Shown here one piece after another: positions 4,772 to 19,714 of a stretch of DNA of 54,990 nucleotides. Positions within the stretch are counted from its first letter, which is position 1; the number at the start of each line of letters is the position of its first letter. The stretch covers positions 92,561-147,550 of the forward strand of contig DUOD01000013.1 in assembly GCA_012838995.1 (NCBI GenBank), given 5' to 3'. The notes beneath the pieces are model-generated. The model ran no database searches. It saw nothing but the letters and a program-made list of their open reading frames with translations, and had not been told where the DNA came from. A program made the position numbers and the translations under genes. Source of the DNA: Clostridiales bacterium. GTDB taxonomy: Bacteria > Bacillota > Clostridia > DUOD01.

Positions 4772-5030
4772 AAAAACCTTCGCCAAAGGGACGAAGGCTT
4801 TAACCACGTGATACCACCCAAATTTCGTCCATTATACGGCCAGGCCGTATAATGGACCTCATTTTTTCGCTAACGGGAGTCCGATAAGGCCTACTACCAT
4901 TTCAGCCCATGGCTCAGAAGTGAACATCTACCACCATCCCATGGAAATGCTTGCAGCCCATGGCATTTCCTCTCTTTATGGGCACGATTTGTGATAGAAT
5001 CTCTTCATCACAGCCTTTAATATATTCTAA
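4772..5030 (-). promoter_or_regulatory. T-box leader (tRNA-Phe responsive) of pheST
   Basis: Minus-strand leader with all main T-box parts. The T-box motif TGGGTGGTATCACGTGG is at 4804-4820. The terminator hairpin (CCTTCG / CGAAGG, then TTTTTATTTT) is at about 4772-4798. A long Stem III (15-bp, GTCCATTATACGGCC) is at about 4829-4857, and a Stem I region runs from about 4910 to 5025. The specifier appears to be TTC at 4922-4924 (Phe): aligning with the thrS leader puts TTC and ACC at the same place before ACYTYTGAGC. Uncharged tRNA-Phe would favour read-through into pheST. Confidence 0.88.
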
Positions 5031-5182
5031 TGTACTACCGACAACATTTTGTACAATAAATATACCTTTAAAGACCCGGTCTTTTCAAATATCTTCCACA
5101 ATAAATCTATACTTGACACGGAATAGACCCCTTTCCCCTGCTGGAAATGGTAAATTTATTATAGCATACCGGTTTTATATAT

Positions 5183-12553: not shown

Positions 12554-13198
12554 TTACCTTCTTTTTTTTAGTTCGGCAGCTATATCCTCAAGTTCTACTC
12601 CTTGTTCCACCAATAGCACAGTTAAATGGTAAAACAGATCGGCTACCTCGTATGTTATCTCCTGTTTATCTTTGTTTTTGGCTGCTATGATGGTCTCGGC
12701 CGATTCTTCGCCCACTTTCTTCAATATTTTATCCAAGCCTTTATCAAATAAATAATTGGTATAGGAACCTTCCTTGGGATTTTCCCGGCGGTCTTTGACC
12801 ACGGCATACAATTCCTTTAATATATTCCCCAATTGATCGGAACCAGGGCCGTACCTTTGACGGTCGGTTTTTCCATCCCCTGCCAACCTGTTATGAAAAC
12901 ATGAATAATAACCGGTATGACAGGCATTGCCAACCTGATCCACCTTTATCAGAAGTGTATCGCCGTCGCAGTCGTAGTCTATTGACTTAACCAACTGGAA
13001 GTGTCCGGAGGTTTCACCCTTGTGCCACAGAACCTTCCTGCTCCTACTGTAGAAATGGGTTTGTCCCGTGTCAATGGTCTTTTGGAGTGATTGCTCGTTC
13101 ATATAAGCCATCATCAGTACCTGATTGGTGTTAACATCCTGGACAATGGCGGGAATTAATCCATTATCATCAAATTTGATTTTATCCAAAGATATCAT
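12554..13198 (-). CDS. hisIE: Bifunctional phosphoribosyl-AMP cyclohydrolase / phosphoribosyl-ATP pyrophosphatase
   Basis: 214-residue fusion performing histidine steps 2 and 3. The HisI part (about 1-115) shows the metal and substrate signature [14 protein letters not shown] and early GLIPAIVQD. The HisE part (about 118-214) is an all-alpha NTP pyrophosphohydrolase with [16 protein letters not shown] and [14 protein letters not shown], supplying the acidic Mg-binding residues. It is the last gene of the his operon, 18 bases after hisF. Confidence 0.97.
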
Positions 13199-13216: not shown

Positions 13217-13975
13217 CTATAGCCTTACAGGTATGCCCTTTGAATTTAGGTATTCCTTTACCTGTTTTATTTCCAGCTCCCGATAATGAAACAACGAAGC
13301 TGCCAATACGGCATCCGCCCCGCCACGGGTTATTACATCATAAAAATGTTCAAGCCTGCCGGCGCCGCCCGATGCTATGACCGGTATTTTTACAGCATTA
13401 GCCACGGCTGCAGTCAACTCGACGTCGTACCCGTCCTTTGTACCGTCTGCGTCCATGCTGGTAAGGAGTATCTCACCTGCTCCGGCCTGTTCAACCTCCA
13501 CCGCCCAATCCAGCACATCTCTACCTGTATTCACCCTGCCGCCGTTTAGGTATACATCCCAGCCGCCCTCTTTCCTCTTTTTCGCATCTATGGCCACCAC
13601 CACGCATTGAGATCCGAATTTTTCGGCTATTTCGGTTATCAATCGGGGACGTTTCAACGCGGCGGAGTTTATGGAAATTTTTTGGGCACCTACCTCCAAA
13701 ATATTTTCAACATCCTCAACGGTCCTTATACCGCCTCCCACCGTAAGGGGTATAGATACTTCCCGGGCAGTGCGCCTTACAACATCTGTCATTATGTCTC
13801 TACCCTCGGCGGATGCCGTTATATCCAAAAATACCAATTCATCCGCCCCCACCCGGTTGTAATGCGAAGCAATTTCCACCGGATCGCCGGCATCCTTTAA
13901 GTTTTCAAATTTCACGCCCTTTACCACCCTGCCCTTGTTCACGTCCAGACAAGGTATTACTCTCTTTATCAGCAA
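13217..13975 (-). CDS. hisF: Imidazole glycerol phosphate synthase, cyclase subunit HisF
   Basis: 252-residue (beta/alpha)8 barrel that cyclises PRFAR with ammonia normally delivered from the HisH amidotransferase. The catalytic aspartates fall in [12 protein letters not shown] at about residues 9-20 and VVAIDAKK at about 126-133; phosphate-binding loops are [13 protein letters not shown] and [13 protein letters not shown]. The start is TTG, six bases after a GGAGGG that overlaps the end of hisA. No hisH lies in the operon, so here HisF would need free ammonia or a HisH encoded elsewhere. Confidence 0.97.
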
Positions 13976-13977
13976 TT

Positions 13978-14697
13978 TTATCCCTCCTGTATCCTTAATG
14001 CCTCCCTTAAGTCTATCTTTCCGGTGTACAATGCCTTACCGACAATTACCCCGGATACGCCTATGGCTTTAAGTCTGGATATGTCCTCCAAACGGCTGAC
14101 ACCGCCGGAGGCGATAATGTCCATACCGGTGTTTTCCACCAGCGCTTTTGTGGTTTCCAGATTGGGACCTGTAAGCATTCCATCCTTTGCAATATCGGTA
14201 TAAATGACGGTACTGACGCCCATATCCTCCATATCCCGGGCAAGGGCCAGTACATCCAGCCGGCTGTTCTTTACCCAGCCACGGGTAGCCACCTTTCCAT
14301 CCTTAGCATCCAGCCCCACGGCTATCCTGCTACGGTAGGTATCCACCGCCGCTTTTACCATACCGGGTACCTCCACTGCTGCAGTCCCGACTATAACCCG
14401 GGCCACCCCGATATCCTCCAGCATCAGTTTTATCCTGTCTAAATCCCTAATACCGCCCCCTACCTGTACCGGAATGTCTACCGATTGGACTATATCTTTA
14501 ATTATGTCCAGGTTGGGATTATCGCCGGAAAAAGCACCGTCCAAATCCACCAAATGCAAAAACTTGGCACCGAGGGCCTCCCATCTTTGGGCCACTTCAA
14601 CCGGATTTTCACTGTAGACGGTGGTTTTATCCATATCACCCTGGAGCAGTCGCACGCATTTCCCTTGTTTAAGATCAATTGCCGGATATATGATCAT
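13978..14697 (-). CDS. hisA: ProFAR isomerase HisA
   Basis: 239-residue (beta/alpha)8 barrel catalysing the Amadori rearrangement of ProFAR to PRFAR. Catalytic residues lie in [18 protein letters not shown] at about 4-21 and in the middle strand [17 protein letters not shown]. Phosphate loops are [11 protein letters not shown] and [12 protein letters not shown]. The start is ATG at 14697, with GGAGGG about eight bases upstream; that ribosome site lies within the tail of the apparent hisH remnant. A longer frame to 14715 has no such site. Confidence 0.97.
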
Positions 14698-14701
14698 ATA
14701 A

Positions 14702-14749
14702 CTACAGCCCTCCAAAATCCTTCAGTATTTTAAATCCTAACGTTTGAAA
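14702..14749 (-). pseudogene. hisH: Apparent C-terminal remnant of hisH
   Basis: The hisB-hisA gap, where hisH normally lies in this operon order, is only 72 bases. Its minus strand can be read FQTLGFKILKDFGGL followed by TAG. This closely resembles the last helix of HisH proteins, which end in a (L)GLKILKNF-type sequence after the conserved FHPEKS segment. The rest of the gene (about 190 codons, including the Cys-His-Glu triad) is absent. The surviving tail contains the GGAGGG ribosome site of hisA, which could explain why it was kept. The match is from memory of the family pattern and short, so chance cannot be excluded. Confidence 0.5.
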
Positions 14750-14769
14750 AACATCTATGAGCCCTTCCT

Positions 14770-15360
14770 TTATAACACGCCCTTGGTAGAAGGTATGCCC
14801 TCCATTTTATCGTCTATGGCCACCGCCTGCCTCACCGCCCTGGCCAGGGCCTTAAAAACCCCTTCTATTATATGGTGGGTATTGATACCGTAGTGTATGT
14901 TAATATGGATGGTCATACCGCTGTTATGGGCAAAGCCCCTGAGGAATTCTTCCAATAATTGTCCGTCGAACTGCCCCACCATACCATGGGGCACCTCACC
15001 CTTAAGTACCAGCAAGGGACGGCCGCTTACATCCACACAGGCAGAAACCAGGGCCTCGTCCATGGGCAGGGTTATTTGTCCGTACCTGTTGATGGACCTT
15101 TTATCGCCCAGGGCTTTTTTCAACGCCATACCCAGTACAATGCCGACATCCTCCACCGTATGATGACCGTCCACCTCAAGATCGCCTTTGCATGTAATGC
15201 TGATATCCATCAGACTGTGCTTGGCAAAGATAATGAGCATGTGATCAAAAAAACCTATCCCTGTATCAATGTCGGCTTTGCCACCGCCATCCACGTCAAG
15301 GGTGAGCTTTATATCGGTTTCGGCCGTCTTTCTGTTTACTTCCGCGCACCTGTTTTTCAT
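14770..15360 (-). CDS. hisB: Imidazoleglycerol-phosphate dehydratase
   Basis: 196-residue monofunctional HisB that dehydrates IGP to imidazole acetol phosphate. The two similar halves each carry a manganese-binding His cluster: FFDHMLIIFAKH at about 37-48 and DGHHTVEDVGI near 65-75 in the first half, and HYGINTHHIIEGVFKALA near the C-terminus in the second. There is no fused phosphatase domain; the phosphatase step is covered by hisJ nearby. The start is at 15360, just inside the hisC stop region, with AGGAGG upstream. Confidence 0.97.
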   Translation of the reverse strand: MKNRCAEVNRKTAETDIKLTLDVDGGGKADIDTGIGFFDHMLIIFAKHSLMDISITCKGDLEVDGHHTVEDVGIVLGMALKKALGDKRSINRYGQITLPMDEALVSACVDVSGRPLLVLKGEVPHGMVGQFDGQLLEEFLRGFAHNSGMTIHINIHYGINTHHIIEGVFKALARAVRQAVAIDDKMEGIPSTKGVL

Positions 15361-15361
15361 T

Positions 15362-16435
15362 TTATCCGTTACCTCCTGTTATGGCCTTTAAAGATCTTAA
15401 CAAGGCATTATTTTGGACCGGGGTGCCGATTGATACCCTGATACAATTGCTCAATGCACCTTTGGAACCGAAGTTCCTGACCAGTATACCGTCCTCCAGC
15501 AATTTTTCATAAACTTCTTGTCCATTATCGCATTTTACCAGAATAAAATTCGCCGAGGAAGGATAAGGTTTTATGCCCGCCATCTCCTTAAGGGCGTTAT
15601 ATACTCTGCGCCTTTCGGCCACAATGGTATTTATTCTTTTTCTTATTATGTCCCGGTGTTTCAGTATGGCCATCGCCGCCTGTTGGGAAAAGGTACTTAA
15701 ATTATATGGCGGCTTTACCTTATAAAGCTGGCGGGTTAGATCTTGGCAGGCTACCGAATAACCAACCCTCAGCCCCGCAAGCCCAAAGGCCTTTGACAGG
15801 GTCCTGAGCACTATCAGGTTGTCATACCGGTTTATATTATCAACCAGTGTCGTGCCATGGAACTCATAATATGCCTCATCCACCACCAAAGCAGTGTCGG
15901 GAAAGGCCTTTGCTATCGACAATACCCGGTCTTTGGTCAGTACACACCCCGTCGGGTTATTGGGTATACAGATAAAGGCTACCCTGGGCTTGTGTTTATC
16001 CAATGCCTCCATATATTTATCCAAATCGTATTGGAATTCATCGTCCAAGGACACCTCCACCGGTTTTGCCCCTGCAATTACGGTAGATATTTTATACATG
16101 CCAAAGGAAGGGGTCGGACATACCACCCGGTCACCGCTACCGGTAATACTGCTTATTATTATCTTTATTAGCTGATCCGAACCGTTGCCCACCAGGATAT
16201 TTTCATCTTCAACACCGAGATACTCGGCTATAACCCCCCTGAGCCTGGTACTGTCAGAGTCGGGATATAGGTTATAGTCCCATTCACCCTGCAGAGCGGC
16301 CAATATCTCTTGCTTTACGGCATCGGGAACATCGTAGGGACTTTCGTTGGCATCCAATTTTACCCGACAGGCTACTTGGTTGGCATTATAAGGTACAAAA
16401 TCCCTCAAATCTTCCCTGATAAACCTATTCATCAT
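15362..16435 (-). CDS. hisC: Histidinol-phosphate aminotransferase
   Basis: 357-residue fold-type I PLP aminotransferase converting imidazole acetol phosphate and glutamate to histidinol phosphate. Substrate-binding LDANESPYDVP at about 28-38, the PLP-binding segment VDEAYYEF near 177-184 and the Schiff-base lysine in LRTLSKAFGLAGLRVGY are present. Two adjacent ATG codons could start; both overlap the end of hisD by about ten bases, implying translational coupling. Confidence 0.96.
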   Translation of the reverse strand: MMNRFIREDLRDFVPYNANQVACRVKLDANESPYDVPDAVKQEILAALQGEWDYNLYPDSDSTRLRGVIAEYLGVEDENILVGNGSDQLIKIIISSITGSGDRVVCPTPSFGMYKISTVIAGAKPVEVSLDDEFQYDLDKYMEALDKHKPRVAFICIPNNPTGCVLTKDRVLSIAKAFPDTALVVDEAYYEFHGTTLVDNINRYDNLIVLRTLSKAFGLAGLRVGYSVACQDLTRQLYKVKPPYNLSTFSQQAAMAILKHRDIIRKRINTIVAERRRVYNALKEMAGIKPYPSSANFILVKCDNGQEVYEKLLEDGILVRNFGSKGALSNCIRVSIGTPVQNNALLRSLKAITGGNG

Positions 16436-17726
16436 CGTCCAACCTCACTTTTACCGAAGCGGCATGGGCCGTAAGCCCCTCCGACTTAGCAAAGGCTATT
16501 ATCTTGGGCCCCACCTTCTTGAGAGCACCCTTGTTGTAATAAATGATGCTGCTTTTTTTGATGAAATCATCAACGCTTAAGGGTGAAAAGAACCTGGCCG
16601 TACCACCGGTGGGTAGCACGTGATTGGGTCCGGCAAAATAATCCCCCAAAGGCTCGGGTGAATATCCGCCTAGGAATATGGCCCCGGCATTTTTTATCTT
16701 GCCCAGCATTTCCATGGGCCTATCCACCATAATTTCCAGGTGCTCAGGGGCAATAATATTGGCTATTTCTACAGCTTCTGCCATATCCCTTACCACAATT
16801 ATAGCGCCGTACTCTTTTAAGGACTCTTTTATCACGGTTTTGGTACTTAAAACCTCTGACTGGCTTATCAGCTGCTCCTTGACCTTTTCCGCCACTTGGT
16901 AGCTGTTGGTAACAAGTATGGCCGAAGCCATAGGATCGTGTTCGGCCTGGGACAGCAAATCGGCAGCAATGTATTTCGGGTTTGCACTTTCATCGGCCAG
17001 CACCAGCACCTCGCTGGGCCCGGCGATCATGTCGATGTCCACATAACCGAACACCCTTCTCTTGGCAGAGGCCACGTATATATTCCCCGGGCCTACTATC
17101 TTATCAACCTTTTTTATGGTCTGTGTGCCGAAGGCCAGGGCGGCTATTGCCTGAGCACCGCCTATCTTGTATATCTCGGTCACTCCCGCTTCATTGGCGG
17201 CCACCAGTGCATTGCTGTATACCTCACCCTCCTGGGAAGGCGGTGATACCATAACAATATCCTTAACGCCCGCCACCTTGGCAGGAATTACGTTCATAAG
17301 CACCGATGACGGATAAGCAGCCCTGCCACCGGGTACGTATACCCCCACCCTTTCCATGGGACGGTACAGCTGGCCCAGAAAGGTACCGTTATCTTTGGTA
17401 TCTATCCAGGATTTTTCCAGCTGCTTTTCATGGTATTGTTTAATGTTTAAGGCAGCTTCCTTCATAACTTCTATCAGATAATCATCCACCCTGTCGTATG
17501 CCCTTTCTATCTCATCTCGGGTAACCTTAATGTTGCCCGCGTTAAGCTCCACCCCGTCAAATTCCAGAGTATATTGAAAGAGGGCCTCATCTCCCAATTG
17601 TTTAACATTTTCTAAAATTTCTTCTACCTTGGCCCCGATATCTTCACTTTCCAGCCGTGAACGGTTTTGGATCTTTTCCAATAGGACATCTTTGCCTTGG
17701 GCATAACAATCAATAATCTCTATCAT
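16425..17726 (-). CDS. hisD: Histidinol dehydrogenase
   Basis: 433-residue zinc enzyme carrying out the last two oxidations from histidinol to histidine with NAD. Visible signatures: [15 protein letters not shown] near 130-144, the NAD-binding [12 protein letters not shown], and [15 protein letters not shown] followed by [11 protein letters not shown] with the catalytic and zinc-binding His/Asp/Gln residues; [12 protein letters not shown] near the C-terminus. It overlaps both hisG (17 bases) and hisC (11 bases), so the genes are tightly coupled. Confidence 0.97.
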
Positions 17727-18366
17727 TGCCTTCCTCCTTCAAAACACCGTCTATTCGTGTAATCAAGTTATTTATCTTTGAGCTTTCCATCTTCAGGCTT
17801 ACACGATTGACCACCAAACGGGCGCTTATATCACAAATTTCTTCCAATACCACCAATCCATTTTCCCTGAGGGTATTGCCGGTTTCCACTATATCCACTA
17901 TGACATCGGAAAGCCCCACTATGGGACCCAGTTCCACCGAACCGTTTAGCTTTATTACTTCAATGGTCTCCCCCTTGGCCCTGAAATAGTTCATGGCAAT
18001 ATTGGGATACTTTGTGGCCACTCGTTTATTGGCCAATGTTATGGGCCTGGTTCTATGCCGGGGAAAACCTGCTACCACCATCCGGCACCGACCAAAACCC
18101 AAATCCAGCATTTCGTACAATGGCTTGGACTCCTCCAAAAGGGTATCCTTTCCCACAATACCTAAATCCGCCGCCCCATACTCTACGTATGTGGGCACGT
18201 CGCTGGGCTTAACCAATATAAACTTAAGACCTTGATCCTCATCCACCAGCACCAGCTTTCTTGTGGGCTTTTTTAATGCTTTACAGTCTATTCCCGCCCT
18301 TTCGAATAATTCAACCGTCCTTTCGGCCAGTCGGCCCTTTGCCAAGGCGATGGTCAAATAACTCAT
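17710..18366 (-). CDS. hisG: ATP phosphoribosyltransferase catalytic subunit (short form)
   Basis: 218-residue short-form HisG, which joins ATP and PRPP in the first committed histidine step. It lacks the C-terminal regulatory domain and therefore needs HisZ, encoded directly upstream. [19 protein letters not shown] at the N-terminus and [15 protein letters not shown] near 160-174 (the PRPP-binding loop) are diagnostic. Its ATG overlaps the hisZ stop as ATGA. Confidence 0.97.
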
Positions 18367-19643
18367 CCTTCATTCCCCCAATACTGTTTATCCAATTCCC
18401 ATAGCCATTTACCTATATCTTCAATCATGCACCCACCGTCTTGGGAATCCAATGTCTTAATCTTCAGATCTTGACCTATCTCTATAATCGTATCCGTCCC
18501 TCCGCGCTGCTTTAAAATTTCCTGCGCCGGTCTGCCTTCCAGGTCGACCTCCACCCTATATCCCATATCCCTGAGACGATCGGCTATCTTTACGGCAACG
18601 GCGTATCTTTCTCTGTGATAGGTCACTAAAAAATCCACCGCCGGTTTTTTTACAAGCATGTCCTGCTTTCCAAGGGCTACCAAAATACGTTTGATGCCCA
18701 CTGCAAAGCCGGTTGCCGGCATATCTTGACCGAAATTTCCCATTAATGCGTCATACCGTCCTCCACCCAGCAGCGTAAACCCCAACTCCCTGGTAAAACC
18801 CTTAAAGACGGTCCCGGTGTAGTATTGCAGACTGCTGACCATACCCAGGTCTATGGAAATATATTGCTCCAGACCACTGTCCCTCAACAGACAGTATATA
18901 TCCTTAAGATTGTCTAGGGCCTCCAGGGCTTTTTCGTTATTGGTAAGTTTGGCCGCCTCGTCTATTACTTCTATTCCACCGTACAGTTTGGGTAGCATAA
19001 AAACCGTTTCTCTAACCTTGTCGGGCAGTTCAAGGTTGTTTAAAAAACCTTCCAGGGCAACCATGTTCTTTTCTTCCACCAGTGCCCTAAACTTTTCTAC
19101 CTGCCCATCCGTCAAATTTATGCCGTCTATTATTGATTTAAAGAATTCCACCTGACCCAGCTCTACTTGGAAATTTTTAAGGCCCACCCTTTCAAGGACG
19201 GTAATGGCCAGCGAGACCACCTCCGCATCAGCTTGGGAACTTCGGCTGCCCAGCAGCTCCACACCGGCCTGGGTAAACTCCCGCTGGCGCGCGAACTGGG
19301 GCTCATCATATCTGAAAACGTTGGAAATATAGGACAACCTCAAAGGCAGGGGATTTGACTGCAGCTTGGTGGCAGCCATCCGGGCAATGGGCGTGGTCAT
19401 GTCCGGTCTTAGTACCATGATCCTGCCCCGCCTATCAAAAAACTTGAACATGCTTTCATCGTCTATTATGACATCATCGCCGGAAAAGACATCGTAGTAT
19501 TCGAAGGTAGGTGTATTTATTTCATCGTAACCATAGCTATCGAATATTTTTCTTATTTTATCTTCTATCAACAGCTTGTTGTACTGTTCATCCACCAGAT
19601 AATCCTGCACGCCTTCAGGAATTTGCAGTCTATACTTTTTCAT
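18363..19643 (-). CDS. hisZ: ATP phosphoribosyltransferase regulatory subunit HisZ
   Basis: 426-residue paralogue of histidyl-tRNA synthetase that binds HisG and gives histidine feedback control, without charging tRNA. The class II core is visible: IPEGVQDYL at the start, motif 2 region [21 protein letters not shown], and [22 protein letters not shown] where true HisRS has its histidine-A motif. The start at 19643 has GGGGAGG six bases upstream; a longer frame to 19676 does not. First gene of the his operon, behind a consensus promoter. Confidence 0.93.
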
Positions 19644-19714
19644 TAGCAGCCTCCCCTCAACCCTATGCTTTATCACGCTAAAGTTGTAACGTGGTAGTGA
19701 AATGAACTAACTCA

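Follow-up and report, generated by a model that had tools for sequence, protein, structure and literature searches.

The histidine operon of this clostridial genome has lost hisH, and we propose with good confidence that this is one part of a wider pattern in which class I glutamine amidotransfer has been lost repeatedly and in concert, and in which HisF and several other synthases would be fed by free ammonia. The broader proposition is that free-living anaerobes have repeatedly and concertedly abandoned this chemistry, with the HisH, GuaA, PurL, CarA and TrpG glutaminases deleted or inactivated together and free ammonia serving as the nitrogen source in most of the steps that introduce nitrogen on the way to histidine, purines, pyrimidines and tryptophan; this we hold with fair confidence.

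The window, i.e. the whole 54,990-nt stretch of DNA that was analysed, corresponds to G000:C61:92561-147550, where G000 labels the source genome (1.92 Mb in 70 contigs, 98.1% complete). Open reading frames (ORFs) on its minus strand define an operon in the order hisZ-hisG-hisD-hisC-hisB-hisA-hisF-hisIE:

18363-19676, minus strand: hisZ (ORF; tblastn matches to hisZ of relatives)
17710-18366, minus strand: hisG (ORF; conserved synteny)
16425-17726, minus strand: hisD (ORF; conserved synteny)
15362-16435, minus strand: hisC (ORF; conserved synteny)
14770-15360, minus strand: hisB, ending STKGVL-TAA (ORF; NCBIfam HisB)
14698-14769, minus strand: hisB-hisA spacer, the site of hisH in relatives (sequence; gene order of relatives)
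13978-14697, minus strand: hisA, starting at ATG (ORF; a longer ORF from TTG at 14715 is mechanical)
13217-13975, minus strand: hisF, full length (TIGR00735, 380 bits; alignment to T. maritima HisF)
13682-13684, minus strand: HisF codon 98, Gln (HisF comparison)
12554-13198, minus strand: hisIE (ORF; conserved synteny)

In gene order the spacers measure -4, -17, -11, 1, 72, 2 and 18 nt, such that the hisB-hisA interval is the sole long one, the others ranging from -17 to +18 nt. An earlier note on this DNA had described the same gene order without hisH and a 72-base gap at this point; the ORFs and a genome-wide search for HisH agree with the former, and the gap spans exactly 14698-14769. In most of the clostridial relatives listed, hisA is immediately preceded by a HisH reading frame whose end resembles ...HPEKSGxxGLKILKNFGxx. 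Three features can be placed within the spacer:

14702-14749, minus strand: putative fossil of the HisH C-terminus, FQTLGFKILKDFGGL-stop (profile score, shuffles and genomic windows)
14708-14713, minus strand: GGAGGG, the hisA Shine-Dalgarno sequence, inside the fossil tail (sequence)
14737-14769, minus strand: possible weak remnant of the hisH start (AGGAAGGG at 14762-14769; ATG of the 5-codon ORF MFFKR* at 14737-14754)

One minus-strand frame of the spacer reads EGLIDVFQTLGFKILKDFGGL, its stop falling 4 nt ahead of the hisA ATG, and the reading VFQTLGFKILKDFGGL, which ends just ahead of hisA, resembles the C-terminus of HisH. The core QTLGFKILKDFG obtains 12.6 bits on a 12-column profile derived from the C-termini of 93 HisH proteins, a value reached by 6 of 20,000 first-order Markov sequences of the gap (mean -8.1, sd 4.6), and the gap is the top scorer among 8,052 real 75-nt windows of the same genome (runner-up 11.4). 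These results bear out the suggestion of the earlier note that the frame represents the last HisH helix followed by a stop, and the position of GGAGGG confirms that this tail holds the ribosome site of hisA. Intact HisH tails, in a sample of ten, score 24-33 bits, so the spacer match is a decayed one, and what remains of the HisH pseudogene is its last ~15 codons only, in place. The same shortfall could indicate a chance match in plain intergenic DNA, with hisH missing all the same; we consider this unlikely in view of the shuffled sequences and genomic windows, and because place, strand and stop are all right. The spacer is best read as a hisH deletion that spared a C-terminal remnant, a reading supported by a tail that stands out statistically, occupies the place of the hisH 3' end in relatives and bears the hisA Shine-Dalgarno sequence. 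The deletion would have occurred in an ancestor of the organism, the last helix and stop being left, at least partly, because GGAGGG serves hisA. AGGAAGGG and the ATG opening MFFKR* may possibly represent the old hisH start. Inspection by eye of the hisH gaps in G019, G020, G072 and G006, four other genomes lacking HisH, yielded no obvious tails.

The earlier note had reasoned that HisF would lack an ammonia supply unless hisH lay elsewhere or free ammonia sufficed. The first escape is closed within the assembly: the best score to the HisH model TIGR01855 is 14 bits (cut-off 105.4), leaving HisF without the HisH subunit of a glutamine-dependent HisFH imidazole glycerol phosphate (IGP) synthase, and PF00117 is represented by just three proteins, PyrG, GuaA and a PuuD-like hydrolase, none being a hisH product or other suitable class I amidotransferase. 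The second appears to be the leading mechanism. It is very unlikely that a different amidotransferase or dedicated glutaminase feeds HisF: the one candidate, the PuuD-like class I protein encoded near glnA, best matches a PuuD-type model (108.9 bits, short of the cut-off set for it) and has no HisH match, HisF residue 98 is altered and not kept, and any such partner would need to serve GuaA, PurL and CarB too.

HisF itself scores 380.4 bits against TIGR00735, above the curated cut-off of 294.55, and alignment to T. maritima HisF indicates that the catalytic residues D11, D130 and D176 and the ammonia-gate residues R5, E46, K99 and E167 are kept (roles as assigned in PMC11350729 and PMC10115891 and as generally known). 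It is in these respects a full-length member of the HisFH system, from which it differs in an assembly without any HisH found and in the replacement of Asp98 by Gln. Position 98, which we presume to be in direct contact with HisH, is Asp in all HisFs without evidence of HisH loss: 129 of 130 comparison HisFs carry it against 7 of 12 HisH-less ones, while Gln at position 123 is found in 129/130 against 5/12 (Fisher p of 1e-5 and 3e-8, respectively, for related sequences and uncorrected for phylogeny). Membership of the comparison set is not limited to HisH bearers, as it includes five Nitrospirota loci with no hisH in the stretch covered, and its lone exception at both positions, L073, is a contiguous hisB-hisA-hisF operon without hisH. 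The substitution D98A is reported to alter HisF allostery (PMC10115891). Judged from sequence, HisF appears to bear the changes that one would expect once HisH is gone. Gene loss within a 1.9-Mb genome and a hisB-hisA spacer that is still open might instead signal a histidine pathway in decay and an organism turning histidine auxotroph, which is quite unlikely given a single compact operon in which all eight of the remaining his genes have their full length, and a HisF that retains its catalytic and gate residues.

Further losses were found among the other glutaminases of the source genome. Its GuaA (GVWFYPED, INCKGSI) keeps the Cys and Glu of the catalytic triad and carries Tyr in place of His181, with the MSH motif lost; the H-x-E and MSH motifs are present in 31/31 sampled HisH-bearing relatives. 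Its PurL reads GIGDGFH, without the catalytic Cys of a glutamine-hydrolysing amidotransferase domain that 8/8 sampled HisH-bearing relatives carry in GICNGFQ. The carB gene lies in the arrangement pyrB-pyrC-pyrF-(~300 nt)-carB-pyrK-pyrD-pyrE, names that we assume from reading the sequences, and CarA was found neither beside it nor elsewhere. A search of the ~300-nt pyrF-carB gap for a carA fossil gave nothing above chance; what this gap (L206:3811-4113) does contain is a sequence resembling a ribosome site, along with a very short ORF. PyrG (GICLGMQ, QFHPE) and PurF (CGVFG) retain their motifs and look intact, so glutamine use has not been abolished in this genome. The absence of TrpG/PabA was considered as a further part of the loss and rejected, the genome having no chorismate-binding enzyme at all.

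These losses bear directly on whether an intact hisH has merely escaped the assembly. The earlier note had allowed for an assembly collapse, and with 70 contigs a mis-assembly is conceivable; it is rendered extremely unlikely by the altered HisH-linked residue 98 of HisF, by three further glutaminases dead or missing in the same genome (GuaA, PurL, CarA) and by the recurrence of the same hisH-less arrangement in other families of the class. An intact hisH within the unassembled ~2%, completeness being 98.1% and not 100%, is hardly credible on the same three grounds, residue 98 being Asp in every sampled HisF without evidence of HisH loss, even at the Nitrospirota loci with no hisH in the stretch covered.

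To place the loss in context, 99 class relatives were searched, own genome included; the relatives found belong to the same class only, and no second genome of the source genus was returned. HisF scores above cut-off in 79 of the 99, accompanied by HisH in 71; the remaining 8 of the 79 (G000, G006, G019, G020, G048, G069, G072 and G082, 93-99% complete) lack HisH, and in each the stretch from hisB to hisA or from hisB to hisF is contiguous, with no hisH inside. Across these eight genomes, no GuaA, PurL/PurQ, CarA or TrpG glutaminase that could be examined is complete: each is either missing or without a residue that is catalytic or part of a conserved motif. For GuaA, Cys86 is Gly in G006, the domain is absent in G019, G020 and G082 and internally deleted in G069, and searches of G048 and G072 found no GuaA. 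The catalytic Cys of PurL/PurQ is Gly in G000, G006, G020 and G069 and Ser in G072 and G082; G048 PurL keeps Cys but reads SSSEGR instead of SHGEGR, and no PurL/PurQ glutaminase domain was found in G019. CarA is absent beside a present CarB in G000, G048 and G069 and altered at catalytic residues in G006, G019 and G072, neither subunit being present in G020 and G082, while the Cys or His of TrpG/PabA is altered in G006, G019, G069 and G072.

Comparison with sampled HisH-bearing genomes gave intact glutaminases in 0/6 versus 31/31 cases for GuaA, 0/7 versus 8/8 for PurL/PurQ, 0/6 versus 14/20 for CarA and 0/4 versus 20/20 for TrpG, the controls being non-random (30 of the 31 GuaA best-scoring; CarA made up of 14 with high and 6 with low scores; TrpG drawn from the upper range of the list). 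The six low-scoring CarA proteins are all triad-damaged (G017, G052, G060, G076, G078, G088), indicating that dead carbamoyl phosphate glutaminases are more widespread than HisH loss; CarA is missing from HisH-bearing G018, G040, G051, G079 and G083. About a dozen HisH-bearing genomes, including G017, G018 and G051, also carry a PPase-only GuaA. Such partial losses place HisH loss at the far end of a gradient, of which it is an imperfect marker; glutaminase death throughout is predicted from motifs. The damaged CarA triads at L261-L266 (G060, G078, G052, G076, G088 and G017, in that order) read, for example, GIGLGHQ, AMGLGHQ or QYEPE.

A tree of HisF, which also includes the HisH-less loci of G011, G015 and L045, needs 8 label changes, of which at least 5 are forced by well-supported branches, so that HisH loss is recurrent, the tree requiring several independent events. 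One same-genus pair illustrates the contrast: G044 has hisH between purC and hisA and intact GuaA, PurL, CarA, TrpG and HisH, whereas G072 has a short spacer there and lacks both HisH and the PurL, CarA and TrpG triads (GuaA not found). G072 and G006 have wide hisB-hisA gaps whose extra frames were considered as a replacement glutaminase and rejected; they read as what we take, from their sequence, to be SAICAR synthetase (PurC). In these two genomes purC sits within the his operon between hisB and hisA (L150:5404-6294 and L152:4850-5740), and in G044 it lies ahead of hisH. At L154 (G048) and L157 (G011), hisF directly follows hisB with neither hisH nor hisA between. L156 (G015) and L157 (G011) are second, HisH-less his clusters beside a HisH-bearing hisF in the same genomes, possibly reflecting bin contamination (4% and 3%, respectively).

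Together these observations suggest that histidine, purines and pyrimidines would be built mostly from free ammonia in the source organism. After deletion of hisH, HisF would remain a working cyclase, taking ammonia from solution instead of from HisH, as we infer because its catalytic residues are conserved and HisF alone is known to be ammonia-active. The change would be genome-wide: with the GuaA and PurL glutaminases lacking catalytic residues and CarA gone, their synthases too would depend on free ammonia, with PyrG and PurF, by their look, staying glutamine-dependent. The same combination would have arisen several times in the class, the driver probably being persistently high ammonia. 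HisF without HisH uses ammonium in vitro at basic pH (PMC11350729), and GMP synthetases take external ammonia with NH4+ Km values of 26 to 174 mM in the part of that source consulted (PMC10526850), values high enough to imply that ammonia is abundant in the habitat or inside the cell. Data from aerobic E. coli class hisH as non-essential (PMC3423039), and C. glutamicum can dispense with it in minimal medium (PMC3896937); against this, older work reports S. typhimurium and E. coli hisH mutants to be histidine auxotrophs despite ammonia (PMC3896937).

Elements of this scenario have precedents. The C. glutamicum hisH deletion strain, in which HisF is inferred to use ammonia in vivo as proposed here, differs in that native hisH is present and functional and the deletion laboratory-made (PMC3896937). 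In Blochmanniella, hisH is a pseudogene and, in the portion of the report available, histidine synthesis is thought to continue with ammonia as the proposed substitute, as here; the host bacterium is an ant endosymbiont, and that portion does not mention concerted loss of other glutaminases (PMC12779916). Among other synthases of glutamine-dependent families, single enzymes are affected, whereas four are in the source genome. CPS1 is such an ammonia-dependent synthase, its glutaminase dead or missing. Single-domain NAD synthetase likewise uses free ammonia (PMC3376133), and guaA, purL, carAB or trpDE without a glutaminase do not occur in Table 1 of that survey, at 490-886 genomes per family. 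That HisF can use ammonia, and that an ant symbiont carries hisH as a pseudogene, is already known; no report of the concerted pattern was found in the literature searched (subscription papers and preprints lay outside its scope), nor of hisH-less operons in work on how his genes are organised or on gaps in amino-acid pathways.

To our knowledge, channelling of ammonia from glutamine is regarded as near-universal in these enzymes, and genomes without it in several of them offer natural experiments on why channelling exists. HisF positions 98 and 123 are indicated as mattering only with the partner present, and automated predictions of auxotrophy would be misled wherever they require hisH or carA. 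Multi-enzyme loss of channelling may furthermore mark high-ammonia life, e.g. in anaerobic digesters. The AS23ysBPME names of the public HisH-less loci L045 and L073 follow the style of a biogas-reactor collection (PMC7038595), which would fit a high-ammonia habitat for those two loci. L073 (positions 4820-5110) derives from an Alcaligenaceae (betaproteobacterial) MAG in which hisB and hisA lie only ~260 nt apart and HisF carries Ala and Glu at positions 98 and 123, a case of hisH loss outside the Clostridia.
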